Shown: positions 30,254 to 53,172 of the stretch, one piece after another
How the letters are laid out: each line of letters opens with the position of its first letter
How positions within the stretch are numbered: the stretch's first letter is position 1
Assembly (NCBI GenBank): GCA_002747175.1
Contig: PDTK01000028.1
Location: 1-64,000 of the forward strand
Direction of reading: 5' to 3'
Source of the DNA: Deltaproteobacteria bacterium
GTDB lineage: Bacteria > Desulfobacterota > Desulfobacteria > Desulfobacterales > Desulfosarcinaceae
Length of the DNA: 64,000 bases
Program-made: the position numbers and the translations under genes
The notes under the pieces: generated by a model
Told to the model about the DNA's origin: nothing
Database searches by the model: none
Seen by the model: only the letters and a program-made list of their open reading frames with translations

Positions 30254-31618
30254 TCATTTGAATTTAAAGTCGGCGACATTGATTTCGTGCTTTTTGATAC
30301 GGTGCCACAGACTTCGTTGTTTGATTCCCAGTAAGGCTGCCGCTTTTACCTGAACACCACCCACCTGTCGCAGTGCATCGATGATGAGTTGGCGCTCAAG
30401 TTGTCGGAGGCGCATATCCAGTCCGTTATTTTCATCCGGCGGGATGGTGGTCCCCATGGCGACTGCCGGTTTTTGGTGGTGCTGCCTTTCGCCAAAGGGC
30501 ATTGATCCGCGTTTATGGATGGAAATCGGCAGGTTGGCCGGCAAAATGGGGCCATCTGCCAGGACCGCGGCAGATTCCAGTGCATTTTTCAGTTCCCGGA
30601 CGTTTCCCGGCCAATCATCACTGATCAGCAACTGGAGTGCTTCGGAAGACAATTGGTTGTCGAAGCCCCGCTGGCTTAAAAAATGATCGGCCAGCAAGGG
30701 GATATCCTCACGCCGGTTTCGCAGGGGCGGCAGCATCACATGAAACACGTTTAAGCGGTAAAACAGATCCTCACGAAAGTTTCCGGCTTCAACCAATTGA
30801 TCGAGACTGCGATGGGTCGCGGCAATGAATCGCACATTGACGTCGATGGATTTGACCGCGCCTAACCGTTGGATCGTGTTTTCCTCAATGGCACGCAGGA
30901 TTTTGGCCTGGGTGTCCAGCGGCATATCGCCAATTTCATCCAAAAACAGCGTACCGGCGTCAGCCAATTCGAATTTGCCGGGTTTGGCCGTGTTTGCTCC
31001 GGTAAAGGCCCCCCGTTCGTGACCGAACAGTTCGCTCTCCAGCAAACCTTCCGGTATGGCCGCACAATTGATCGCCACAAAGGGACGGTTCCGTCGCTTG
31101 CTATGCTGATGAATACTCCGGGCGATGAGTTCCTTTCCGGTACCGGTTTCACCGGTAATCAAAACGGTTGAATCCTTTGGTGCCACCTTGACGATCTGGT
31201 TGAAAACACCGCGCATGGAACGGCTCTGGCCGACGATATCCGGAAACAACTGGCGAGACTCGACCTTGCTCAGCAGTTCGGTTACCTGATCGAAAACCAT
31301 GGTGAATTTTCCCATGTCGTCGTTGGCGGCCGGCCGGCCCGGCTTTTGAACGACATCGCCGACAATTCCCAACTCTTTGGTTTTGATGAAAAAACGTTTC
31401 ATCGGGTCGATCAGCAGCTTCACGATCAGGACACCGCAAACCAGCGTGAAAACGATGAGCAACACGCCCCACAAAGTGGCTGGCCACCGGGGATTCATTG
31501 CTTTGGAAAGATAGTACGTGGTTGTATTGTAGGTAACGATGATCGATAAAATGGCAAATCCGGCAAAGATTACCGGGATGGTGATGTACAAGCTTATATG
31601 GAAGCGGATATCCTTCAT
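30254..31618 (-). CDS. Membrane-anchored sigma54-dependent activator (2 TM + AAA + HTH, no receiver domain)
   Basis: Two N-terminal TMs; 'GETGTGKELIARSIHQHS', 'GAFTGA', C-terminal Fis-type HTH 'VKAAALLGIKQRSLWHRIKK'; start MKDIRF overlaps the stop of the upstream gene. Confidence 0.92.
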   Translation of the reverse strand: MKDIRFHISLYITIPVIFAGFAILSIIVTYNTTTYYLSKAMNPRWPATLWGVLLIVFTLVCGVLIVKLLIDPMKRFFIKTKELGIVGDVVQKPGRPAANDDMGKFTMVFDQVTELLSKVESRQLFPDIVGQSRSMRGVFNQIVKVAPKDSTVLITGETGTGKELIARSIHQHSKRRNRPFVAINCAAIPEGLLESELFGHERGAFTGANTAKPGKFELADAGTLFLDEIGDMPLDTQAKILRAIEENTIQRLGAVKSIDVNVRFIAATHRSLDQLVEAGNFREDLFYRLNVFHVMLPPLRNRREDIPLLADHFLSQRGFDNQLSSEALQLLISDDWPGNVRELKNALESAAVLADGPILPANLPISIHKRGSMPFGERQHHQKPAVAMGTTIPPDENNGLDMRLRQLERQLIIDALRQVGGVQVKAAALLGIKQRSLWHRIKKHEINVADFKFK

Positions 31619-32838
31619 TATTGCACCATTTGCACAAGATCCCACATGGGCAGATAGATAGCCAGGGCAAAGAAAAGCACCACAGCCGCCAGACATACGG
31701 TCAACAACGGGCCGACGGATTCGGCAATCTGTTTCATTGCGTATTCGAGTTCCGCATCATAATGAGACGCAGCCTCCTGAAGCATTTCATCCAGATTTCC
31801 GGATTCTTCACCAATGGCCACCATGTTGATGATGATCGGTGTAAAATAGGGCGATACCTTGAGGGGTTCGGCGATACCGCGCCCCTCCTCGAGCCGTTCG
31901 ATGATGCGATTGAATGCTCTGGCCAAAACGGCGTTGTTGATGGTTTCCGAAAGAATGGACATGGTTTCCAGAACGGAAATTCCACTTGACTGTAAAATGG
32001 CGAAAACACTTGCGAACCTGGCCATGACAGCCTTGCGTATGATGGTTCCGGCCACCGGCATGTGCAAAAGGATCTTGTCCCGCCGGAAGCGTCCTTCTTC
32101 CGTTTGCAGATAGATATGGAGGAGAATGCCGATACCAATGGCCGACAGCAACAAAAACGGCCAGAATGTCGCCAGGAACGTATACAAATGCATACAGATC
32201 AGTGTTGGCAAAGGCAAATCAAGTCCGGATTTGATGAAGATCCCGGTAAACTTGGGAATCACCAGGGTCAACAGGATGACAAACGCCACAAGCAGCGATA
32301 TCACGACAATAAAGGGGTATTGCATCGCCGAACGGATATCGGATTTGATCTTGTTGTCATGGTCGAAAATGTAAATCAGGCGCTCCAGAATTTCGGTCAG
32401 GCTGCCGCTCGTCTCACCGGCATGCAGCATGCTGCAATAAAGTGATGAAAACACAGCCGGATATTTTCTGAAGCCATCATACATGCTGCCGCCTTCGCGT
32501 ATATCCTGGGATATCGAGACAATAATCCGTTTGAGCTTGATATTCTCGGTCTGGCTTTCCAGTACCTGAAGCAATTTCAAAATCGGCACGCCGGAACGGA
32601 TCAATGTCCGCAACTGCTTGGTGAACAAGATCAGTTCAGGCGTTTTGACAGGGGTGAATTTTTCCCTGAGCTCGACCAGAAAAAATCCGCTGCCCGATTT
32701 GCTTGCATCCGTCAGCTTCTGGGGGATGTATCCACGAGAGGCCAGAGCATTGGTGGCCCCCTCGACGGAATCCGCATCAATGGATCCGGTAACCATACTG
32801 CCGTTTTCAGTGATCGCCTGATAGTAAAATTTGGTCAA
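31618..32838 (-). CDS. Type II secretion/type IV pilus inner membrane protein (GspF/PilC/MshG-like)
   Basis: Two GspF domains; 'FTKQLRTLIRSGVPILKLLQVLESQ'. Confidence 0.93.
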   Translation of the reverse strand: MTKFYYQAITENGSMVTGSIDADSVEGATNALASRGYIPQKLTDASKSGSGFFLVELREKFTPVKTPELILFTKQLRTLIRSGVPILKLLQVLESQTENIKLKRIIVSISQDIREGGSMYDGFRKYPAVFSSLYCSMLHAGETSGSLTEILERLIYIFDHDNKIKSDIRSAMQYPFIVVISLLVAFVILLTLVIPKFTGIFIKSGLDLPLPTLICMHLYTFLATFWPFLLLSAIGIGILLHIYLQTEEGRFRRDKILLHMPVAGTIIRKAVMARFASVFAILQSSGISVLETMSILSETINNAVLARAFNRIIERLEEGRGIAEPLKVSPYFTPIIINMVAIGEESGNLDEMLQEAASHYDAELEYAMKQIAESVGPLLTVCLAAVVLFFALAIYLPMWDLVQMVQ

Positions 32839-32864
32839 TTGACGCTGTTCCTTCCCGATGGAGA

Positions 32865-34592
32865 TTACATCATGACGGCCGATACCGCTTCGTCAAGGGT
32901 TGTTTCGCCATTCAATACCTTGCGGGTGGCATCGTCCCTCAGGGTCTGAAGGTTGCCGGCATCCCTGGCCGCACGCATGATTTCCCGGGATGACGCCCGC
33001 CTCAGGATCATCTCCTGAACCATTTCATCGATAGCCAGAATTTCAAAGATGCCGGTGCGCCCCTTGTATCCTTTGTCCATACAATTGAAACAGCCCTTTC
33101 CCTGTACGAAGTCCGCTCCTTCTATCTTATCCAGTCCCCAGTAAGAAAGGGCCGCCTTGGGAGGTTTCCAGCTTTTTTTACAGTGCGGACAGACCTTTCG
33201 CACGAGGCGTTGGGCGATGGATACCAGCATCACCGAACTGACCAGAAAGGGTTCGATCCCCATATCGATGAATCGATTGATCGCACCGGCGGCATCGTTG
33301 GTATGAACGGTGCTTAGCACACGATGGCCGGTCAACGCACTTTGAACGGCAATACCGGCGGTTTCGGAATCCCGGATTTCTCCGACCATGATCACGTCCG
33401 GGTCCTGCCGCATAATGGACCGCAGACCGCTGGCAAAGGTCATGCCCGCCTTGCGGTTGAGTTGAATCTGGCGGATCTTGTTGATCCGGTATTCAACCGG
33501 GTCCTCAATGGTGATGATATTGATGTCCGGCTGATTGATTTTCTTCAAAATGGAATACAGGGTCGTGCTTTTGCCGCTTCCTGTCGGTCCGGTACTCAAA
33601 ATCATGCCGTAGGGCCGGGTAATAATCGGCTCCAATTTGCGGATAGCCGCCTCGCTCATCCCCAAATGTTCCAGGGAATAGACCCCGCCACTGGTATCCA
33701 GCAGCCGCAACACCATGTTTTCACCGTAAATGGTGGGGATTGTGGAGGCCCGGATATTAATCTCCTTGTTGTCCATACGGATGGTGAAACGACCGTCCTG
33801 GGGCACCCGGGATAGCGATATATCCATGTTGGACAGGATTTTTATCCTTGATATAATCAACAATATCAAGGATTTTGGTGGGGCCGGAACATCATGAAGC
33901 TTTCCGTCCACCCTGAACCGAACCTGAACGAAATCTTTTTCCGGCGAGATATGGATATCACTGGCCCCTTCGCGCACCGCCTGGGACAGGATGGAATTCA
34001 CCAGGCGGATGACCGGCGCCTCCTCGGCCATGTCGTGAAGTGAACTGACCTCCACGTCCTCGGATATGGTGCTGGCTTCCCCGTCCTGATCGCTTTCGAT
34101 CTGCATATCGCTCATTCCGTCCAGCACACCACCGATGGCGGAATAGGTCCCGTACAGGCTCGAAATCATGTGGTTGAGTTCCTGATAGGTACAGATGACG
34201 GCTTCCACTTCGGTGTTCGTGTACACCTCTATGGCATCCAGGGCATTGATATCCATCGGGTCGGTCATGGCCACCTTCAACAGGTAATGGGTCCGCTCGA
34301 TGGGAATCAGCTGATGTTTCTGGCACAAGGCCAGCGGTATGACGTTGGACAGATGGATGTCGATGGGATAGGATTCCGGCTTGTATTTTTCGATGGACAA
34401 TTGCCGCGATACCAGATTCACGATTTCCGAACTGCTGACAATGCCTTCACGAACCAGGTATTCACCCAATTTGATATGGCTGCGTTTATGATTGACGATG
34501 GCCTCATCGAGCTGTTCCTGAGTCAGCAATCCACCGTCTATGAGCATTTCACCGAGCTTTTTCTTTTCTTTCACATTGTCACCTACAGCCAT
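32865..34592 (-). CDS. GspE/PilB/MshE-like assembly ATPase
   Basis: 'STGPTGSGKSTTLYSIL', 'GEIRDSETAGIAVQSALTGHRVLSTVHTNDA', 'CPHCKKSWK...CFNCMDKGYKGRTGIFEIL'. Confidence 0.97.
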   Translation of the reverse strand: MAVGDNVKEKKKLGEMLIDGGLLTQEQLDEAIVNHKRSHIKLGEYLVREGIVSSSEIVNLVSRQLSIEKYKPESYPIDIHLSNVIPLALCQKHQLIPIERTHYLLKVAMTDPMDINALDAIEVYTNTEVEAVICTYQELNHMISSLYGTYSAIGGVLDGMSDMQIESDQDGEASTISEDVEVSSLHDMAEEAPVIRLVNSILSQAVREGASDIHISPEKDFVQVRFRVDGKLHDVPAPPKSLILLIISRIKILSNMDISLSRVPQDGRFTIRMDNKEINIRASTIPTIYGENMVLRLLDTSGGVYSLEHLGMSEAAIRKLEPIITRPYGMILSTGPTGSGKSTTLYSILKKINQPDINIITIEDPVEYRINKIRQIQLNRKAGMTFASGLRSIMRQDPDVIMVGEIRDSETAGIAVQSALTGHRVLSTVHTNDAAGAINRFIDMGIEPFLVSSVMLVSIAQRLVRKVCPHCKKSWKPPKAALSYWGLDKIEGADFVQGKGCFNCMDKGYKGRTGIFEILAIDEMVQEMILRRASSREIMRAARDAGNLQTLRDDATRKVLNGETTLDEAVSAVMM

Positions 34593-34601
34593 TTTGAAGC
34601 G

Positions 34602-36350
34602 TCAGTCCCATCGGCCCTTACCTGCAAATGGATCTGAAAAAAAGACGGTCCCCGCCGGCCAACCGGAAATAATTTCGACAACGGCGGATAAGTCCTCCGG
34701 AAGCCTGGCCCTGGCATTTTCCGCCCCCTGGGCGTTGAAAAAATAGCCATGCACAAAAAGCCCGTACCGCAATCCGGCCTGTCGATCCCATACCGCGATG
34801 ATGCGCCGGGCAGGGTACCCATCCATCCTTGTCAGCGCTTCCCGATATGCCGCTTCCATCGAATCCGTATCGCCGATCTTGAGCCACCAGCCCGGGGTGT
34901 GATGTTGAACATCATCAAGGGGCATTGCCGGGAAGTGGACCACATCGCCCACGTTAATGGCATCGGCATGCCGGATATGCGGATTGGCCGCCAATACGGC
35001 GTCAAGAAACCGGCTGCGCAAATCACCGTACACAACCATGAGCATCTGCCCCAAGGTGTCCTTGGGGGCAACGTTCAGGGTGCCCAGCAGCGCCGGCATC
35101 GAAACGGCGTTCCGGAAAGGTTCCTTTTTTTTCCGGAACGCGGAATCGTCAACATTGTCAGAAAGCATGTCCGGTTCTGTCGCCGGGATATCCCGGATTG
35201 CCGCAGAATCGGCAGCCAGAGGTTCCGGAAGGGCTGATATTTCCAGATCGTTTATCAATCCGTCCCCACTGCCTGTCGTCCCGCCGTCCGGCTGGGGTTG
35301 GGTTTCATTTTGGGAGACAGATCCTGTGTAAACCGCAGTCCCCCCAAGGTTCCGATCCGACACATGGTTGGGTGCGACGGTCACCAGGAGCGTTTTATTG
35401 CCGATGGAGATAGATACCGGCGGCAGCCAACCGGAACGGTATAAAAGGAGCACGCCGGCACCGACACATAAAACCGTCACCATAAACGCAAAGGTACCTT
35501 GCAAAAAGGGTTGTCTCCGATTCACCTGCGGGCTCAGGGACCGACGCTGGCAGGACCGAACCAGCCGCCGGTTCACACGGCAGCGGTTTTGCACGATCAG
35601 TGCCAAAATGCACTGATGGCACAGGTTGATAATCTTGCGTGGATAACCTTGTGTCACGCGATATATTTCAAAAAGGGCCGGCGTGGTAAACAGTTTCAGC
35701 TGCCGGTCAGGTTTACCGGCCTGATCGACCCGGAACTGAATCATCCTGCGGCTGTCGGAATAGGTCATGGGGCCCAGAAAATGAATCAGGTTGACCCGGT
35801 CGGCCAGGTTGTCACGACGTTCCAGGATATCCTGGAACTCTTTCTGGGCAAAAAGTACGATCTGCAGCAATTTATGATCGTTGGTTTCATAATTCAACAA
35901 TTCCCGAAGTATTTCGAGGCAGAATTCGGGAAGCTTCTGCCCCTCGTCAACCACCAGAACAACCGTCTTGCCGGCACCGATTCCGCGCTTGTAAAGATGG
36001 TTTTTGATGCCTTCCTTGAGCGACTGCTCGTCGGCCTTACCATCCAGACTCACCGCCATCATGGAAGCGATGGTTTCCAAAAAGACCAATGGCGATGCAA
36101 AGGACGGGTCCAGAACCAGATGGATCTCGAAACACGCATCCCCGGACAAACGTTTCAGCAGGGTCCGACAGATCGTCGTTTTACCGGACCCGACGGCGCC
36201 GATGACGATGTTCAGCCCACGTTTGAGGCGCAGTGCCAGCTCGATTTTCTGCAGACAGGCCACATGCTGTGCGGAATGATAAAAAAAATCGGGATCGGGT
36301 GAGTTCGAAAAGGGTTCTCGATCCAGATTGACAACGGTAAAATAGTCCAT
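34602..36350 (-). CDS. ExeA/MshM-like AAA protein with TM, LysM-like and C-terminal SPOR-like region
   Basis: 'LNIVIGAVGSGKTTICRTLL', 'VLVVDEGQKL', central TM, 'DTLGQMLMVVYGDLRSRFLDAVLAANPHI'. Confidence 0.85.
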   Translation of the reverse strand: MDYFTVVNLDREPFSNSPDPDFFYHSAQHVACLQKIELALRLKRGLNIVIGAVGSGKTTICRTLLKRLSGDACFEIHLVLDPSFASPLVFLETIASMMAVSLDGKADEQSLKEGIKNHLYKRGIGAGKTVVLVVDEGQKLPEFCLEILRELLNYETNDHKLLQIVLFAQKEFQDILERRDNLADRVNLIHFLGPMTYSDSRRMIQFRVDQAGKPDRQLKLFTTPALFEIYRVTQGYPRKIINLCHQCILALIVQNRCRVNRRLVRSCQRRSLSPQVNRRQPFLQGTFAFMVTVLCVGAGVLLLYRSGWLPPVSISIGNKTLLVTVAPNHVSDRNLGGTAVYTGSVSQNETQPQPDGGTTGSGDGLINDLEISALPEPLAADSAAIRDIPATEPDMLSDNVDDSAFRKKKEPFRNAVSMPALLGTLNVAPKDTLGQMLMVVYGDLRSRFLDAVLAANPHIRHADAINVGDVVHFPAMPLDDVQHHTPGWWLKIGDTDSMEAAYREALTRMDGYPARRIIAVWDRQAGLRYGLFVHGYFFNAQGAENARARLPEDLSAVVEIISGWPAGTVFFSDPFAGKGRWD

Positions 36351-36407
36351 GGTAGCATTTGCCGGAAGATAGGGGACCCTCAATACCTGCGGATCCGATC
36401 GACATGA

Positions 36408-37997
36408 TCAGTCCTGTTGGGCCGGCGTCGATCCTGTCGTCCCACCCGCCGTACCGGAATCAGGCAGCCGGCTTTTCAGGATATGGGGTGTGATGAAAAT
36501 CAGCAGCTCCTGCATTTGTTGCCCTTTGGACGATCCCTTAAACAGATATCCGAGTCCCGGAACATTTCGTAGCCAGGGCGTTCCGTAATCAAGGTTTTGA
36601 CCGGTTTGTTTGTTCAATCCACCAATCACCGTGGTCTGTCCATCGAAAACAACGACATTGGTTTTGGCGTATTTGGTAATGACCGTTGGATTGCCGTTGA
36701 CGGTCCGTGAAAAATCCGGCTCGTCCTTGTTGGTCACGATATCCAGACGCAATGTGTCGCCTTCGATAACATGGGGGGTCACTTCCAGGCGCAACACCGC
36801 CTTTTTGTATTCAACCTGGACCTTGTTGTCATTCACGGTTTGAAAGGGGATATCGTTACCGCTTTCGATGATGGCAGCCTGGTTGTCCAAGGTTGTAATG
36901 GAGGGTTTGGACAGAATGTTGAGTTTGTTTTCTTCCTCCAGTGCCGTCAACTGGGCGGAAAGAATGGCATTGCTGGTTTCTGCGATCATTCCCAGGGACA
37001 AACCGGAGCCCGCTACCGTCGCCGAGGTCAGATCGGCCGGAAAACTGCCGGCCCACCCCGTCGTCGGATTCAGATTGTCCGTGGATGAGCCGACACCGAT
37101 GGCATTTCCGGCGTTGGGGGTGATCCAGTAGTTGTCGCTTTTCCGATGCCAGCGGTAGGCACCGCCCCATTGAACGCCGAGTTCTCTGGCGGTCTGACGG
37201 GTGGTTTCGATAATGTGCGCCTCGATAAGCACCTGTGCGGTGGGCTGGTCCAATTCGGTGATCAATGCCAGGATGCGTTCGAGATCCGACCGGGTGGCCT
37301 GGATGATCAGGGCGTTGTTGTGATCATCGACGAGGACCGAACCGCGGGTTTTACCATCGTCACCGGGGCTCAGGAAATGTTTCAGGTTATTTTTTAGATT
37401 CCCGGCATCGGCGTAATCCACATGCACAATTTTGGTAACCAGCGGCTCCGCGAGGGCCATCTGCCGGCGGGCGGACAAAAGTTTGCGGTCCGCCTCCAGC
37501 TGCTTGACCATGTCGGTCTTGTCCGCAAGTGTAACGATTCGCAGCAGCTCACCCTCCCAGGCATAAGACAGGCCGTGGGTTTTGAGGATGCCTTCGAAGA
37601 CCTGCCCCCAGGGAATTTTGACCACGTTCACGCTGGTGGTCCCTTTGACGGTCTCGTTGATGATGATACTGATACCGACCGAACGCGCCAGGGCACGCAG
37701 GAGTACGGGCAGTTCGCCCTGATGAATTTTCAGCGTGATGGGTTTTTCAGGAAGGGGCCTGTCCGGATACCGATCCACCGTTTCGTGCCCCAGGCCGGTT
37801 GTCTGTTTCTCCGGCATATCGATGATGCGGTGTTGGACGGGAGGTGAAAAACCTCTGGAATCGGCGACCCGCGCCCGCCACGTTTCAAGCGGGTCAGGGT
37901 GATTCCGGGTGGCCTGGGGCGTACATCCGGTCAAGCCGGCCAACAGACAGATTCCGGTCGATACCATCACGACCCGTTTTCGAAACGAAAATAACAT
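36408..37997 (-). CDS. Secretin (MshL/PilQ-like outer membrane pore)
   Basis: Lipobox-like 'LAGLTGCTP'; secretin C-terminus 'VVFDGQTTVIGGLNKQTGQNLDYGTPWLRNVPGLGYLFKG'. Confidence 0.95.
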   Translation of the reverse strand: MLFSFRKRVVMVSTGICLLAGLTGCTPQATRNHPDPLETWRARVADSRGFSPPVQHRIIDMPEKQTTGLGHETVDRYPDRPLPEKPITLKIHQGELPVLLRALARSVGISIIINETVKGTTSVNVVKIPWGQVFEGILKTHGLSYAWEGELLRIVTLADKTDMVKQLEADRKLLSARRQMALAEPLVTKIVHVDYADAGNLKNNLKHFLSPGDDGKTRGSVLVDDHNNALIIQATRSDLERILALITELDQPTAQVLIEAHIIETTRQTARELGVQWGGAYRWHRKSDNYWITPNAGNAIGVGSSTDNLNPTTGWAGSFPADLTSATVAGSGLSLGMIAETSNAILSAQLTALEEENKLNILSKPSITTLDNQAAIIESGNDIPFQTVNDNKVQVEYKKAVLRLEVTPHVIEGDTLRLDIVTNKDEPDFSRTVNGNPTVITKYAKTNVVVFDGQTTVIGGLNKQTGQNLDYGTPWLRNVPGLGYLFKGSSKGQQMQELLIFITPHILKSRLPDSGTAGGTTGSTPAQQD

Positions 37998-38020
37998 GAG
38001 ACTCCTGTTCGGTTCCCTTC

Positions 38021-38629
38021 CTAATGGCTATCGCCCACACCCGATTCCGTATATTTCAGTATAATCATATCTGCCGCATCGCGTCTGCCGATGTCAACCT
38101 GTTGCGGCCCAATGCGCCGAACATAATACCCTTTGTCATTGACGGATTCCCCGGTGGCATATTCGATTCCGTTGATGATGGCCAGGCGCTGTGAGCCGGC
38201 CTCAATATATCCCGTATAAACCATGTCGATCGAAGATTTTGCATCGACCGGCGCCCGGTTCGAAGCCCTGGACGATTTTTTTTCCGACAGGGACAAGGTC
38301 GTGTCGATAAATGGATCTTTCTGCCATGCGCGTTCGGCGCGGCGCATACTGAACAACTCTCTGGCCGTTGTGTCGGCGTCTTCCGCTTTGAGTTTCCGGC
38401 TCGCTTCACGGGCAAATTCCATGGCCTGCTGCATCGTGTCTTGTCCGTTGACCGTTCGGGATATCGGCGCTGAAGCCCCCCAGTAGACATACACACCCGA
38501 CAAAACGGTGACCACCATGATGGAAAGGATGATTTTTTCTCTTTTCGACATATCAGTTGCAGACCAATGGGTTATGCGGTCGGCTGTTTCGGTCATTGGT
38601 GAAACAGCGATACCGTCAACTGAATCCAT
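38021..38629 (-). CDS. PilP/MshK-like pilus assembly protein (tentative)
   Basis: Single N-terminal TM; 'YTGYIEAGSQRLAIINGIEYATGESVNDKGYYVRRIGPQQVDI'; position in the locus. Confidence 0.6.
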   Translation of the reverse strand: MDSVDGIAVSPMTETADRITHWSATDMSKREKIILSIMVVTVLSGVYVYWGASAPISRTVNGQDTMQQAMEFAREASRKLKAEDADTTARELFSMRRAERAWQKDPFIDTTLSLSEKKSSRASNRAPVDAKSSIDMVYTGYIEAGSQRLAIINGIEYATGESVNDKGYYVRRIGPQQVDIGRRDAADMIILKYTESGVGDSH

Positions 38630-39120
38630 TTTTTGCTGGAGTTGTCGCTGCGAACCTGTATGGTTTCGATGCGATCCACATATCCTTGCGCGGCGATGGT
38701 GTTGATCAATGTCTGTAGGTTTAAAAAGGCGCCCCGAAAAACGACATCCACCTTGAGCCGCCCTTCAGCCTGATTGAGATCCCGGACATCCGGAATGACA
38801 CTCTCCAGAACAAGATCGGCTGTCGCCGCAATCCCCTGAAAAAGCCCTGTCAGGCGAGTGGTGTCATCCGTGTTCAATGCTTTTCGCTGAGGGATTTTCA
38901 GTTGTGCAGACGGAGAAATCCGCACTTTTTTCACCAGTTTTTGATAAATGGGCGCCAATGAGCGCCTGAGCGTGATTTCCTCGTTCAGAGCCGCGATCTG
39001 TCGATCCTGTTCAGCCAGGGTCCTGTAATTGGGGTAGATCACCAGTACCATGAACGCAAAAAGCCCCAGAGCGCATACAACCACCAGAATCGGATTGTTT
39101 TGACCTTTCGAATTCGACAT
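38593..39120 (-). CDS. PilO/MshJ-like pilus assembly protein
   Basis: N-terminal TM plus coiled coil, ferredoxin-like C-terminus; position in the locus. Confidence 0.65.
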   Translation of the reverse strand: MSNSKGQNNPILVVVCALGLFAFMVLVIYPNYRTLAEQDRQIAALNEEITLRRSLAPIYQKLVKKVRISPSAQLKIPQRKALNTDDTTRLTGLFQGIAATADLVLESVIPDVRDLNQAEGRLKVDVVFRGAFLNLQTLINTIAAQGYVDRIETIQVRSDNSSKKWIQLTVSLFHQ

Positions 39121-39147
39121 TGACTGTTTCCTTGCACCGACCGGCGA

Positions 39148-41067
39148 TCAGGCCAGCTCGAACGCAATCGAAAACCGCATGACCTGACGCGTGTCCAGAA
39201 ACTGCAATCGTTTGCTTTTTACCGATGGCGTTTTGAACAAGAGGGATGATTCCATGTTGAGCATATAACCGGCAAGATCCGTTTCGAAGCGGAGCTGTTC
39301 GCCGGTAACGATTCCCTCTATGGTCAAGGTGGCCTCATCCCTTTTTCGACGCCCCGCACCGTGCCCCACCAAATCGATGCGAAGGGCGGTCAAGCGGATA
39401 TGATCGGGCGTCAGTTGCGTGATTTCGGAAATAATCGCCGACATGAGATAACGCTCGCCCAAGGCGGCGATCCCGGCACGTTTTTGGTTCACCTTGGACA
39501 ACAGCGCGGTGACCAGATCCTGGGTCAGCGGAACGTTGAAGGCATCTTTTTCGCTTGTCAATTGGGCGATCCGGTCGGCTTTGGCGAGAATCCGGTTTTC
39601 CTGCCACAAGAATCCGCCCAACAACAGAAACAGAAAAGCGATACTGGCTGCGGACATGGCGATCCTCAACCGCTGTGACCGAACCTGCTGTTCCTTGTGG
39701 CGATGGGTAAAAATGAAATTGGGGGTCAAATCATTCGAGGCCAACCCGATTCCAATGGCCGGGACAAAGCTTTCCCGATCCACGGCAGCGGACGGAATCG
39801 GCACGCTTTGCGAAAACGCATGACCGGCGGGGAAGGGATTGAGAACGTTCACCGGAGATCCCAGAAGCGATTCGATTTTTTCCACCACCGCCGGACTGGC
39901 CGTCACCTGGCCGGATATCAGCACCTCATCCACGCCGTTTTGGTTGAAGTGCATACAAAAATGGGCATTGGTGCGTTCAACCTGCCTGACCAGCCGTTCG
40001 ATGGCGGGGGAAATGGCCTGGTGTACATTCAGCAACGCATCTTGCAGATCATCGCTGGTTTTTTCGCCGTCGAGAAACCGCCTGAACATGTCGCTGGCAG
40101 CCTGGTAAACGAAGTCCTGCTCGTCATCATCGGCCGCCTGACCGGATGGACCGGCCTGCGTATTCGATTCGTGCCGCTGCAAATCAGGAATCAACCCCGC
40201 ATAATCTTTTGCGATGGCATCAATCATGCTGTGTATGCCGGCTTTGATGGCCCGCGACAGAACCAGATTCCCGTTCGCATAAATGGTGATCCGCGACCAG
40301 TCCCTGCCGATGAAAAGACAGCATGTATTGCGCCCTTTTCCCCTGACGATTCCGGTCTTCAGCAGATTTTGAACGGCGAACGGCACAATGGAGATACCGG
40401 TCAGGGGGTAACCGATACGGCTGAAGAGCTTTTTCAAGGCGTTGGTCTGGGCAATGGGAATGGTAAATGTCATGACCTCGGTTTTTACCATTCCGTTTTC
40501 GTTGACATCTCCCAGTACCCTGAAATCCAGCATCATCTCCTTGGGATCAAATGACACCTCTTTGGAGAAGGTCCAATAGACGGCATTGGCAATCTGTTTT
40601 CTGGGCAGCTTGGGAATCCGGATGCAGCGGGTTTCGACATTGGCCGATGCCGTGCAGCACCAGATATCATAGCGTTTAAGGCCCTTTGTGAAGCCGAAAA
40701 GCGCATTGGCCAGTGTTTTCGCCAGGGACGGCGAGTCGAAAGCGACCGATTCGTCAAGGGGGACGCAGGCGTAATCGAGCAACGCGAAAGATTTATCCGA
40801 CAGGTGGCCGATTTTGGCTATTCGAAGGTCACGATTACCGATTTCGATACCGATGCGGACGGGCCGTTTGAAGGCCAGGGTCCCGAGTAGGGTGCGTGCG
40901 GCGGGGGCCTTAACCGGACGATCTTCTTCGACGGACATCGATGTGGGATCATGGTTCCGGATCAGATCAAGCAACTTCTCGGTGGAAGAAATCTCGTCCT
41001 TGTTGGTCAATTCAGCGCTCCGTGTCACAAAAGCAGGCCATGGATGAAAACGGCCATGTCCCGCCAT
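39148..41067 (-). CDS. PilM-PilN-like fusion protein
   Basis: N-terminal PilM/actin-like 'RIGIEIGNRDLRIAKIG', then TM and PilN-like C-terminus 'LRIAMSAASIAFLFLLLGGFLWQENRILAKADRIAQL'. Confidence 0.7.
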   Translation of the reverse strand: MAGHGRFHPWPAFVTRSAELTNKDEISSTEKLLDLIRNHDPTSMSVEEDRPVKAPAARTLLGTLAFKRPVRIGIEIGNRDLRIAKIGHLSDKSFALLDYACVPLDESVAFDSPSLAKTLANALFGFTKGLKRYDIWCCTASANVETRCIRIPKLPRKQIANAVYWTFSKEVSFDPKEMMLDFRVLGDVNENGMVKTEVMTFTIPIAQTNALKKLFSRIGYPLTGISIVPFAVQNLLKTGIVRGKGRNTCCLFIGRDWSRITIYANGNLVLSRAIKAGIHSMIDAIAKDYAGLIPDLQRHESNTQAGPSGQAADDDEQDFVYQAASDMFRRFLDGEKTSDDLQDALLNVHQAISPAIERLVRQVERTNAHFCMHFNQNGVDEVLISGQVTASPAVVEKIESLLGSPVNVLNPFPAGHAFSQSVPIPSAAVDRESFVPAIGIGLASNDLTPNFIFTHRHKEQQVRSQRLRIAMSAASIAFLFLLLGGFLWQENRILAKADRIAQLTSEKDAFNVPLTQDLVTALLSKVNQKRAGIAALGERYLMSAIISEITQLTPDHIRLTALRIDLVGHGAGRRKRDEATLTIEGIVTGEQLRFETDLAGYMLNMESSLLFKTPSVKSKRLQFLDTRQVMRFSIAFELA

Positions 41068-41371: not shown

Positions 41372-42286
41372 ATGAAGCTGCCCAATACATCCGTCAGGCT
41401 CACCGATCATATGATGCTGATCGGCATTTCGCTGGCCGCCATCTACTGGATTCTCGATTCGCTTTTGTCCATATTCACCCGCTACGACAATCTGTTCGAG
41501 CAATTGTCAGGTGTCAATCTAAATGAAATCTGGACGCGAATCATCGTGCTCTGCCTTTTTGCCATTTTCGGATCTCACGCCCAGTACACGATCAACGAAA
41601 GAAAAAAAACGGAAGCCAAACTCGAACAAAACGCAGCGACTCGCGAACGATTCCAGCGACTGCTGTCGCCGGATCTGGCCGAACGGGTCGTCTCCGGTGA
41701 GCTGAAAGTCGAAAAAGGCGGAAAAGATCAGGTGGCAACGGTTCTTTTCGTCGATATCCGCGGATTTGCCACCATCAGCGAAAACAACCAGGCGTCCGAG
41801 GTCCTGGGTATGCTCAACGAGTACTATGAGGCCTTGGTCGAAGTGGTTTTTCGCCATGAGGGCACCGTAGACAAATTCATCGGAGATGCAATGATGGTGA
41901 TCTGGGGCGCACCGGTAACCCATGCCGACGATCCCCACCGTGCGGTACAGGCAGCGCTTGAAATCAAGGAGGCCCTGGCCGACTTCAACCGGGCGGGTCT
42001 CAAAATCGGCCGTCCCCGGATCGCTGTCGGCATCGGCATCAACACCGGCAATCTCATGGCCGGCTATATCGGTTCCTCCCGCACCATGAGTTACTCGGTA
42101 ATTGGTGACACCGTCAACATCGCTTCACGACTTTGTTCGGCGGCCCGCCCGGATCAAATATTGGTTTCTGAAAATACGTGGAACCAGGTCAAAGACCAAT
42201 TCGAGGCCGTATCCCTCGGTCAGATACAGGCCAAAGGAAAATTTCAGCCGGTCAATGCCTATGCCGTCACCAAATCGATACAGTAA
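41372..42286 (+). CDS. Membrane class III adenylate/guanylate cyclase
   Basis: Two N-terminal TMs; 'VATVLFVDIRGFATISE', 'KFIGDAMMVIWGAP', 'IGINTGNLMAGYIGSSRTMSYSVIGDTVNIASRL'. Confidence 0.94.
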   Translation: MKLPNTSVRLTDHMMLIGISLAAIYWILDSLLSIFTRYDNLFEQLSGVNLNEIWTRIIVLCLFAIFGSHAQYTINERKKTEAKLEQNAATRERFQRLLSPDLAERVVSGELKVEKGGKDQVATVLFVDIRGFATISENNQASEVLGMLNEYYEALVEVVFRHEGTVDKFIGDAMMVIWGAPVTHADDPHRAVQAALEIKEALADFNRAGLKIGRPRIAVGIGINTGNLMAGYIGSSRTMSYSVIGDTVNIASRLCSAARPDQILVSENTWNQVKDQFEAVSLGQIQAKGKFQPVNAYAVTKSIQ

Positions 42287-49974: not shown

Positions 49975-50898
49975 ATGGATATCGGCAAACAAATTAAATC
50001 CCTGCTCAATGAAGCGGAATTATACCGCTGCCAAGGATTGCTATCCGAAGCAAAAAACAGGTATCGGTCCGCGTCGGCCCTGATACAGGATCTCGACCGG
50101 TTGAAAAACAAAGCGCACCTGTTGAAAGTCATTTCGGAAAAAATACATTCTCTTGACGAAAAATCGGAAAAATTTCAAACCGGACCGGCATCTCCTGAAA
50201 TAACGGAAAAAGGACAGGATCTGATCAAGAACCTGTTCGGTAAAAACGACCTCCAAAAAGCCGTGGCACTGGCCAAATTCGGTCAGTTCGAAAGAGCCAT
50301 CGCCGAATTCGAGGCCCTTTTGAGAGACGATACATATCGTGTGGATGCCGGTAAAAACATTATCCGCTGCAAACTGGCCATCGCCACTGTGGATGATGCC
50401 ATCGACCAGTACAAACAATGGTACGCCGGCGATCTGTTCACCAGCAGCCAGTTGGAAGCGATTCGAACCTACCTCCACCCGATCCTGGAAAACAAGGGTA
50501 TTTCGACACCGTTGCCCGCCCCCGTGAACGAGAATCCCGATGACGATTCTGAGAACAAGACCGACACCGGTGGAATTGAGTTCAGTATGCCGGAACCGGA
50601 AGAGGACATGCTCGACATTACCTCTATCGGTATTACCTTCACCAGCGGTGCCAACCAGGGGAAAATGGTTGAATTCGACGTCAACTTCCAATCCGGTGAC
50701 ATGCTCAGCCTGATCATATCCAAATCGGATGCCGCATTCATCGAGGATTTGAATAATGGCGATAATTTGGACGACGTCCAGTTTTATTCCCCGATTGCCA
50801 TGTTCAAGGGAACCGCAGTGGTTGCCAACAAGACACGGATCAATTCCGGACCGAAACAAGGCGACTTCTGCCTGGACCTGAAGGTGACCGGCAGTTAA
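49975..50898 (+). CDS. TPR-containing protein with PilZ-like C-terminal region (tentative)
   Basis: N-terminal helical repeats; C-terminal 'LDITSIGITFTSGANQGKMVEFDVNFQSGDMLSLII'. Confidence 0.55.
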   Translation: MDIGKQIKSLLNEAELYRCQGLLSEAKNRYRSASALIQDLDRLKNKAHLLKVISEKIHSLDEKSEKFQTGPASPEITEKGQDLIKNLFGKNDLQKAVALAKFGQFERAIAEFEALLRDDTYRVDAGKNIIRCKLAIATVDDAIDQYKQWYAGDLFTSSQLEAIRTYLHPILENKGISTPLPAPVNENPDDDSENKTDTGGIEFSMPEPEEDMLDITSIGITFTSGANQGKMVEFDVNFQSGDMLSLIISKSDAAFIEDLNNGDNLDDVQFYSPIAMFKGTAVVANKTRINSGPKQGDFCLDLKVTGS

Positions 50899-50999
50899 CG
50901 CCGTTCAAACAGCCGGTTACCATTGAATGCGGCTGATATCGCTGAATCTGACGAGGCCTCCAGCGCACCTTTCACTCAATTAGTTAAGGAATAATTTCT

Positions 51000-51614
51000 A
51001 TGGCCATTTTCAACCTGAAGAAAAAGGAAATCGAGTGTAAAATCGTATATTACGGGCCCGGCCGCTGCGGTAAGACAACCAATCTCGAATATATTTTCAA
51101 ATCCTACAAGAAGCAGGTCACAGGAGAAATGGTCTCCATCAACACGGAAGGAGATCGTACACTGTTTTTCGATTTTCTGCCCATGGGCCTGGGAAAGATA
51201 AAGGGATGCGATATCCGCGTGCAGCTTTATACGGTGCCGGGTCAGGTAAAATATAGCTCGACGCGCAAATTGGTGCTTCGGGGTGTAGACGGAATCGTAT
51301 TCGTGGCCGACTCGCTGGAGGTTCGCAGAAAAAAAAACATGATCTCCTTGAAGGACCTTCAAGTCAATTTGAAAGAATACGGAAAAAGCATTTTTAAAGT
51401 GCCCCTGATCATGCAGTACAATAAAAGGGATTTGGCGGACGAAGGTATCCCGCTGATGTCCGTGGAACAGATGCAGCGCGACCTGAACAGGCAACTCAAA
51501 GTGCCTTTTTATCCGGGCAGTGCTGTCAAAGGCACCGGTGTGGGGGTGACATTGAAGGCATGTTTGATGAGCACATTGAAATCATTACAAAAAGAATTCA
51601 AATGGGCAAAGTAG
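51000..51614 (+). CDS. MglA-like small Ras-family GTPase
   Basis: 'IVYYGPGRCGKTTNLEYIF', 'QLYTVPGQVKYSSTRKLVLRGVDGIVFVADS', 'NKRDL'. Confidence 0.93.
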   Translation: MAIFNLKKKEIECKIVYYGPGRCGKTTNLEYIFKSYKKQVTGEMVSINTEGDRTLFFDFLPMGLGKIKGCDIRVQLYTVPGQVKYSSTRKLVLRGVDGIVFVADSLEVRRKKNMISLKDLQVNLKEYGKSIFKVPLIMQYNKRDLADEGIPLMSVEQMQRDLNRQLKVPFYPGSAVKGTGVGVTLKACLMSTLKSLQKEFKWAK

Positions 51615-51618
51615 GGGG

Positions 51619-52788
51619 TTGAGCCTGGCGATGAATGAGCGTTCCGTTCTATCAGGGAGCCTGGGATTCCTGTCGTTGGGAGATATCATCCAGCTTCTGG
51701 GGTCCAGCAGCAGCACCGGTGTGTTGCGTTTGATCAACCGTTATGCACCGGATCCCGGGTTTATCTACTTCATCGAAGGGAATCCGATCAACGCCCGAAA
51801 TGGAGATCTCGACGGACTGGATGCGCTTTATTCGTTTTTCGGGTGGCTGAACGGATCCTTCGAATTCACCCGGGAAGCCATTTTGTCCGATAAGCGTATC
51901 ACCAAAAGCAGAATGGGAATCATTCTGGAAGGCATGAAACTCCTGGATGACGGCCGCATAAAAAAAATCGGGCCGGAATCCGCGTCCGACATCGTCGGGA
52001 AACGGTCCTTATCAGCCACTCCCATCGTCAAAGGCCCGCTGGTGGACTATATGTATGTGGTTGATGAAGAGGACTTTTTCGATGGCGAACTCATCGTCGA
52101 AGAGGGCAAGCACGGCAGTTGGATCTGGGTCATTCTGGAAGGCGTGGTCGATATCGTCAAAGAGGGCGATTCGGGCAACATCCCCATCATTCGTATCGGG
52201 GACGGCTCGTTTATCGGGAGCATGGCTTCATTTTTGCTGCAAGGTCATATCCGTACCGCCACCGCCGTAGCTGTGGGCAATGTCCAACTGGGTGTGCTGG
52301 ATTCCCAACGGCTGGCCCAGGAATATGCCGGAATGTCGATAGAATTCCGGGCGTTTCTGACAAGTCTGGACAAACGCCTGAAGCAGCTGAGCGAACGGAT
52401 TACGGAACAACATGAAAACAGGGGCCGCACGACCGATGCCCTGAAAGGCAAATCCGTCATCCTCGATCCCAACGACACCAAACAGAAGTCACTTTATGTG
52501 ATCAGACAGGGAAGGGCATCCATCATTCAGGATACGGCCAACGGACCGGTCGTTTTGTCTCATCTCTATAAAGGCGATTTTTTTGGGCACGTCCCCTTCT
52601 TGCACCTGGGGCAGGAATCGGAAAAGGCGCTCGTTTACGGATCACACAACATAAAAGTCGCGAAAATTAAAACCGTCTCTCTTCAAAAAGAGTACAATCG
52701 TATGTCTACAACCTTTAAAAATATCGTGGATAACATGGTGTCATGCATATCCGTCACAACAGACTTGCTTAACCCCATCGGTACATAA
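51619..52788 (+). CDS. DUF4388 domain plus cyclic-nucleotide-binding domains
   Basis: 'LSGSLGFLSLGDIIQLLGSSSSTGVLRL' then two CNB-like segments ('WIWVILEGVVDIVKEG', 'SLYVIRQGRASIIQD'). Confidence 0.82.
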   Translation: MSLAMNERSVLSGSLGFLSLGDIIQLLGSSSSTGVLRLINRYAPDPGFIYFIEGNPINARNGDLDGLDALYSFFGWLNGSFEFTREAILSDKRITKSRMGIILEGMKLLDDGRIKKIGPESASDIVGKRSLSATPIVKGPLVDYMYVVDEEDFFDGELIVEEGKHGSWIWVILEGVVDIVKEGDSGNIPIIRIGDGSFIGSMASFLLQGHIRTATAVAVGNVQLGVLDSQRLAQEYAGMSIEFRAFLTSLDKRLKQLSERITEQHENRGRTTDALKGKSVILDPNDTKQKSLYVIRQGRASIIQDTANGPVVLSHLYKGDFFGHVPFLHLGQESEKALVYGSHNIKVAKIKTVSLQKEYNRMSTTFKNIVDNMVSCISVTTDLLNPIGT

Positions 52789-52821
52789 AAAACATTACCA
52801 GCGGGATAAAGGTGACCCCCA

Positions 52822-53172
52822 ATGAATGAAAAACGAAAACATTCCAGAGTGGACTCCATCTACTTGCTCAATTACGTGCATCTGGATGAAAACGATAAGA
52901 AAATCTTGCAAGGCATGGGACGAACCATGAATGTTTCCGAATCGGGAATCATGCTCGAAACCCATGTGTCCTTCAACGAGAACGATACGGTCGACGTGGT
53001 GGTCGGCCTGAAAGAAGACATGGTCACCATTCGGGGAAAAGTAATATTTACCCGCGTTTCTGAAACCGGTCGCTACCAGTCCGGAATCCAGTTTCTGGCA
53101 ATCGAAAAGGCGTCTTTGACGACATTGCGGCGCTACATCCACGCCTTTAACGCGATCATCTCTGAAGCCTGA
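52822..53172 (+). CDS. PilZ domain protein
   Basis: RxxxR 'RKHSR' and 'NVSESG' c-di-GMP motifs. Confidence 0.9.

Follow-up and report, generated by a model that had tools for sequence, protein, structure and literature searches.

Gene content of the locus

Four genes lie in tandem on the plus strand at positions 49975-53172 of the window, which is the whole 64,000-nucleotide stretch of DNA analysed here. Open reading frames and Pfam domains bear out an earlier note's description of the four genes, and the TVPGQ, RKHSR and NVSESG motifs that it named are all present. The pilus locus and class III cyclase that it placed in the same window were likewise found. The features are as follows.

49975-50898, plus strand: protein with TPR-type helices (residues 3-173) and, at its C-terminus, a PilZ-like beta domain (residues 215-306), by AlphaFold2 and Foldseek
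51000-51614, plus strand: group 1 MglA-type small GTPase (TVPGQ, Arg53 finger, NKRD) of an MglB-uncoupled clade, by Pfam and tree
51631-52788, plus strand: DUF4388 (PATAN-like) domain and two non-canonical CNB domains, by Pfam and motif alignment
52822-53172, plus strand: single-domain PilZ protein carrying both RxxxR and [DN]xSxxG, by Pfam and motif alignment
30254-41067, minus strand: pilus-type locus, by gene content in the window
32865-34592: MshEN-bearing ATPase, part of the pilus locus
41372-42286, plus strand: class III adenylate/guanylate cyclase whose N-terminal region is uncharacterised, some 8 kb upstream of the module

The ATG at 51631 is a more likely start for the third gene than the TTG at 51619. 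Intergenic gaps along the module measure 101, 16 and 33 bp, and the two shorter ones suggest that the last three genes are probably carried on one transcript. An Rfam scan returned no RNA element, and scans for promoters and terminators gave matches at chance level only.

The first gene encodes a protein of 307 aa that gives only sub-threshold matches to Pfam TPR models. AlphaFold2 predicts helical hairpins over residues 3-173, mostly with pLDDT above 80, and these have weak TPR-type matches in Foldseek (E 0.002-0.02). Residues 215-306 are modelled confidently as an all-beta domain, which has no Pfam match, lacks the RxxxR c-di-GMP motif, and aligns weakly in Foldseek with the PilZ-domain protein MrkH (E about 0.006, 3.0 A rmsd, 93-94 columns).

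The fourth gene encodes a PilZ protein (Pfam E=2e-10). Its RxxxR motif is present in 61/61 orthologues, and within [DN]xSxxG the [DN] and G positions are kept in 61/61 and the S in 59/61. These motifs make c-di-GMP binding likely and to that extent support the c-di-GMP side of the earlier interpretation. In a known system, the PilZ protein PixA affects MglA polarity (PMC8316039).

The GTPase

The module GTPase matches Ras-, Arf- and EF-Tu-type GTPase models of Pfam over their cut-offs and aligns over its full length with structures of Myxococcus xanthus MglA (E=4e-64). The G3 motif TVPGQ is found in 69/69 orthologues, the catalytic Arg53 of the G2/switch-1 loop (DRTLFFDFLP) in 68/69, and the nucleotide-binding motifs G1 (GKT) and G4 (NKRD) are invariant. 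The tree, which with 69 module-type sequences is narrower than the 139 carrier genomes surveyed below, places all of them in a clade of their own (support 0.86), apart from the paralogues that are paired with MglB. Judged by motifs and tree position, the enzyme is an Arg-finger/TVPGQ group 1 MglA of a separate clade. The second MglA paralogue of the window's family is 54-62% identical to it. One module GTPase, in family f18 (L169), has Ser in place of Arg53.

Uncoupling from MglB

Group 1 MglA genes usually have an MglB gene within four genes, although a minority of MglAs are known to be orphans (PMC4316618). The module lacks that coupling and contains no Roadblock gene. The earlier observation that none adjoins the module is correct, and none occurs elsewhere in the window's own assembly. 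This metagenome-assembled genome (MAG) of 1.85 Mb is 63% complete, so the absence is by itself weak evidence and was set aside in favour of an order-wide survey. The survey covers 241 genomes, with tallies made from hand-transcribed lists. Module-type GTPases were assigned by score (E<=1e-86), and one genome with a contig-split gene was counted by hand. Roadblock proteins were searched with the Pfam model (PF03259) and a clade-specific MglB profile, which gives strong E-values where MglB exists and thus makes the absences credible.

A module-type GTPase is encoded in 139/241 genomes, and in 49 of these neither model detects a Roadblock protein. Among carriers at least 97% complete, 17/62 are without a detectable Roadblock, and 14 of the 17 encode no other MglA. 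MglB is present in 45/49 genomes that hold other MglA types only. The persistence of the GTPase in near-complete genomes that lack a Roadblock protein indicates that it does not depend on MglB, which is the strongest new fact of this analysis. Since a third of the carrier genomes have no Roadblock, another protein probably regulates the GTPase.

The Arg finger of MglA is put in place by MglB (PMC6876712). In the module GTPases, conservation of the Arg-finger loop is 0.95 in genomes without MglB and 0.93 in genomes with it, and switch 2 is as conserved in the MglB-less genomes as in the others. Retention of the loop where MglB is missing predicts that a different partner positions the Arg finger; this is the most interesting consequence of the sequence comparison.

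It is possible, at fairly low probability, that an MglB encoded elsewhere serves the GTPase in trans and that the module only adds an effector arm to an otherwise ordinary MglA/MglB system. About 65% of module-GTPase genomes do encode MglB, including, by Roadblock matches over the cut-off, 25 of the 30 genomes of the window's family that were searched. The faces that bind MglB, switch 1 and switch 2, are almost the same as in MglB-coupled MglAs, and the low completeness of the window's MAG leaves room for a missing gene. In family f18 (L169), the module is followed a few kb downstream by mglB and a second mglA. However, in the window's family the Roadblock protein adjoins the other MglA paralogue, and the near-complete genomes without any Roadblock, most of which have the module GTPase as their sole MglA, argue against a general role in trans. 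The same genome search does not support the earlier suggestion that MglB may be replaced, since those 25 family genomes encode MglB elsewhere, beside a paralogous MglA.

The DUF4388-CNB protein

The third gene encodes a protein with an N-terminal DUF4388 domain (PF14332; 60.5 bits against a cut-off of 25, E=2e-16) followed by two cNMP_binding (CNB) stretches (Pfam E=2e-21). DUF4388 corresponds to the PATAN domain; among the control genomes PF14332 also matches Synechococcus. The domain has no PF03259 match, and hhalign against the clade's MglB gives a probability of 0.4%, so it is rejected as a disguised Roadblock. Its predicted order of elements, beta-alpha-3beta-alpha-beta-alpha, differs from the Roadblock topology and likewise counts against that candidate. 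A Foldseek search with the whole model was dominated by CNB matches and returned nothing on DUF4388.

Both CNB pockets are altered and, to judge from residue conservation, are under constraint. In CNB1, the ribose-binding Glu is found in 0/75 orthologues and is replaced by Ser, Thr or Asn in almost all, while the phosphate-binding Arg is kept in 75/75. CNB2 has the Glu in 1/75 and the Arg in 1/75, and a G[HQ]EP loop is conserved in their place. CNB2 is therefore unlikely to bind cAMP in the ordinary way, and for CNB1 such binding is doubtful. The pocket residues give no support to cAMP sensing by canonical CNB chemistry, and they contradict the earlier proposal that the GTPase is tied to cAMP.

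The survey contains 18 genomes in which the DUF4388-CNB protein is present without the module GTPase type, and this retention, with the lack of Roadblock homology, makes an effector or adaptor likelier than a dedicated GTPase-activating protein (GAP). One family has lost the GTPase, TPR and PilZ genes of the module but retains the DUF4388-CNB gene, near which lies a divergently oriented REC-class III adenylate/guanylate cyclase gene (L191:4353-5432, L195:7597-8688); given this neighbour, cAMP may still be relevant to the protein. A second family without the module GTPase has an ion-channel gene with a zinc ribbon directly after its DUF4388-CNB gene (L160:4110-4940).

A new kind of GAP or guanine nucleotide exchange factor unrelated to Roadblock is also conceivable. 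That role would fall to the DUF4388-CNB protein or to the PilZ-tailed TPR protein, with gating by c-di-GMP via PilZ and by some ligand that the altered CNB pockets bind (CNB1 has Ser in place of Glu, and CNB2 has the G[HQ]EP motif). We regard this as unlikely. About as unlikely is the earlier suggestion that the DUF4388-CNB protein replaces MglB as GAP or regulator and ties the GTPase to both cAMP and c-di-GMP. Every one of the 139 genomes with the module GTPase also encodes the DUF4388-CNB protein, its gene follows that of the GTPase at only 16 bp, the conserved Arg-finger loop of MglB-less genomes implies some positioning partner, and a class III cyclase stands beside the gene in one family. 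Against it stand the lack of Roadblock homology, the different predicted strand and helix order, the 18 genomes that keep the protein without its supposed client, and, for the cAMP part, the ribose Glu lost from CNB1 in 75/75 and both residues lost from CNB2 in nearly all. Thus, of the claim that the GTPase is regulated without MglB, the uncoupling from MglB stands and the DUF4388-CNB protein as the substitute is disfavoured.

Conservation and linkage of the module

The relatives that bear names are Desulfosarcina and Desulfatitalea, alongside related MAGs. Loci of the family keep the order TPR, GTPase, DUF4388-CNB and PilZ wherever the contig allows. A neighbourhood search, proposed earlier as a check, was made on 40 loci across the Desulfosarcina order, about one per family. 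The complete four-gene order is present in 29/40 loci, which argues that the module is not a product of chance. The GTPase gene is adjacent in 37/40, the TPR gene takes the first position in 33/40, and the PilZ gene is adjacent in 33/40; the 7/40 loci that lack TPR and the 7/40 that lack PilZ weigh against the function proposed below. At order level, the median identity to the window's proteins is 77.5% for the GTPase vs 39-45% for its module neighbours, which marks the GTPase as by far the more constrained. In a sample of the phylum, full-length DUF4388-CNB matches fall mostly in the Desulfosarcina order with a few in sister lineages, where three loci keep GTPase, TPR and DUF4388-CNB together. 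Together the four genes make up a module conserved across the Desulfosarcina order.

The flanking housekeeping genes uvrC, mdh and purC are syntenic across the order as well, so synteny alone overstates functional linkage and the block could be partly frozen; co-occurrence is the stronger evidence. That the four genes are merely neighbours in such a frozen block, with no common pathway, is improbable, since presence of the GTPase implies presence of the DUF4388-CNB protein in all carrier genomes and the sister-lineage loci keep three of the genes together.

The pilus locus and the extension ATPase

The pilus locus of the window encodes a sigma-54 activator, a GspF/PilC-like protein, an MshE/PilB-like ATPase with an MshEN c-di-GMP-binding domain, an XrtA-associated-type ATPase, a PilQ-like secretin and a PilM-like protein. 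Most of the family genomes with this locus have it about 10 kb away from the module, and in most other families the two are unlinked. Judged by its PilM, only 65/139 module genomes contain a relative, and the locus is rejected as an obligate partner of the module. For PilB, plain presence of a TIGR02538 match is uninformative (239/241 genomes) and the model becomes informative at its cut-off. Over that cut-off, a canonical T4aP PilB is found in 5/139 module genomes and in 56/102 others, a comparison that phylogeny confounds. This near exclusion suggests that the extension ATPase targeted by the module, if there is one, is of an MSH/T2SS-like kind.

Proposed function and relation to known systems

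MglA-type GTPases correspond in bacteria to the Ras switches, and in other bacteria MglA determines the cell end at which pili are made. The control of their GTP hydrolysis through the Roadblock protein MglB is well studied. An order-wide clade that keeps the Arg-finger loop, often without a detectable MglB, beside fixed partner genes that include a likely c-di-GMP receptor, offers a concrete candidate set for a different MglA regulator and for a direct link from c-di-GMP to MglA. Its hosts are sulfate reducers of environmental importance, of which several are in culture (Desulfosarcina, Desulfatitalea).

The best explanation, which we hold tentatively, is that the GTPase is an MglA switch independent of MglB. 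In its GTP form it would act on a pilus or secretion ATPase by way of the TPR and PATAN-like/CNB proteins, and PilZ would bring in c-di-GMP. The GTP-bound GTPase would bind the TPR protein, the DUF4388-CNB protein or both, the TPR protein by analogy with SgmX and Bd2492. The PATAN-like DUF4388 domain could then pass the signal to a pilus or secretion extension ATPase, as in the PATAN-PilB pairing of Synechocystis; a candidate target of the MSH/T2SS-like kind is the MshEN-bearing ATPase at 32865-34592. The PilZ protein would supply the c-di-GMP input, and the CNB domains may be a scaffold, or their ligand may be something different from ordinary cAMP. Hydrolysis of GTP would use the intrinsic Arg53, positioned by a non-MglB partner for which the best candidates lie inside the module. 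We infer the pilus or secretion output from homology only.

Several known systems provide these analogies. In M. xanthus, MglA-GTP binds SgmX, and MglA-GTP, SgmX and PilB together serve as a precedent (PMC7519303). As in the MglA/MglB/RomR-RomX and SgmX system of that organism, the module has a group 1 MglA with intrinsic Arg53 and TVPGQ, its TPR protein is a candidate effector, and type IV pilus regulation is a likely output. It differs in that the unit has no MglB gene and a third of the genomes lack one altogether, in that its small TPR protein carries a PilZ-like tail, and in that dedicated PATAN-like/CNB and PilZ genes belong to the unit.

The Bdellovibrio hub of MglA, the TPR protein Bd2492, RomR and the c-di-GMP receptor CdgA is, according to the available text of its report, similar in having an MglB-less MglA, a TPR partner and a c-di-GMP receptor in the circuit (PMC3983030), the last two being candidates in the module. 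Its genes are scattered and that text describes no DUF4388/CNB protein in it, whereas here the components share one conserved locus.

In Synechocystis, PATAN domains have the extension ATPase PilB as a binding partner (PMC10519157, PMC9090330). Loci of MglA groups 1 and 5 near PATAN genes were noted by Wuichet and Sogaard-Andersen (2014) and by Makarova et al. (2006), and such neighbourhoods were described as occasional (PMC4316618). By analogy, the PilB precedent and these neighbourhoods make an ATPase-directed adaptor role likelier than a GAP role for the DUF4388-CNB protein. A search of the published literature found no description of the module, its order-wide gene order, its MglB independence or the CNB pocket changes; the module is a real, conserved and apparently undescribed arrangement of known parts. 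The DUF4388-CNB protein resembles the Synechocystis PATAN regulators PixE, PixG and LsiR in its N-terminal PATAN-like domain fused to a regulatory module. Unlike these regulators, from whose organism the PilB-binding precedent comes, it has DUF4388 fused to CNB domains instead of REC.
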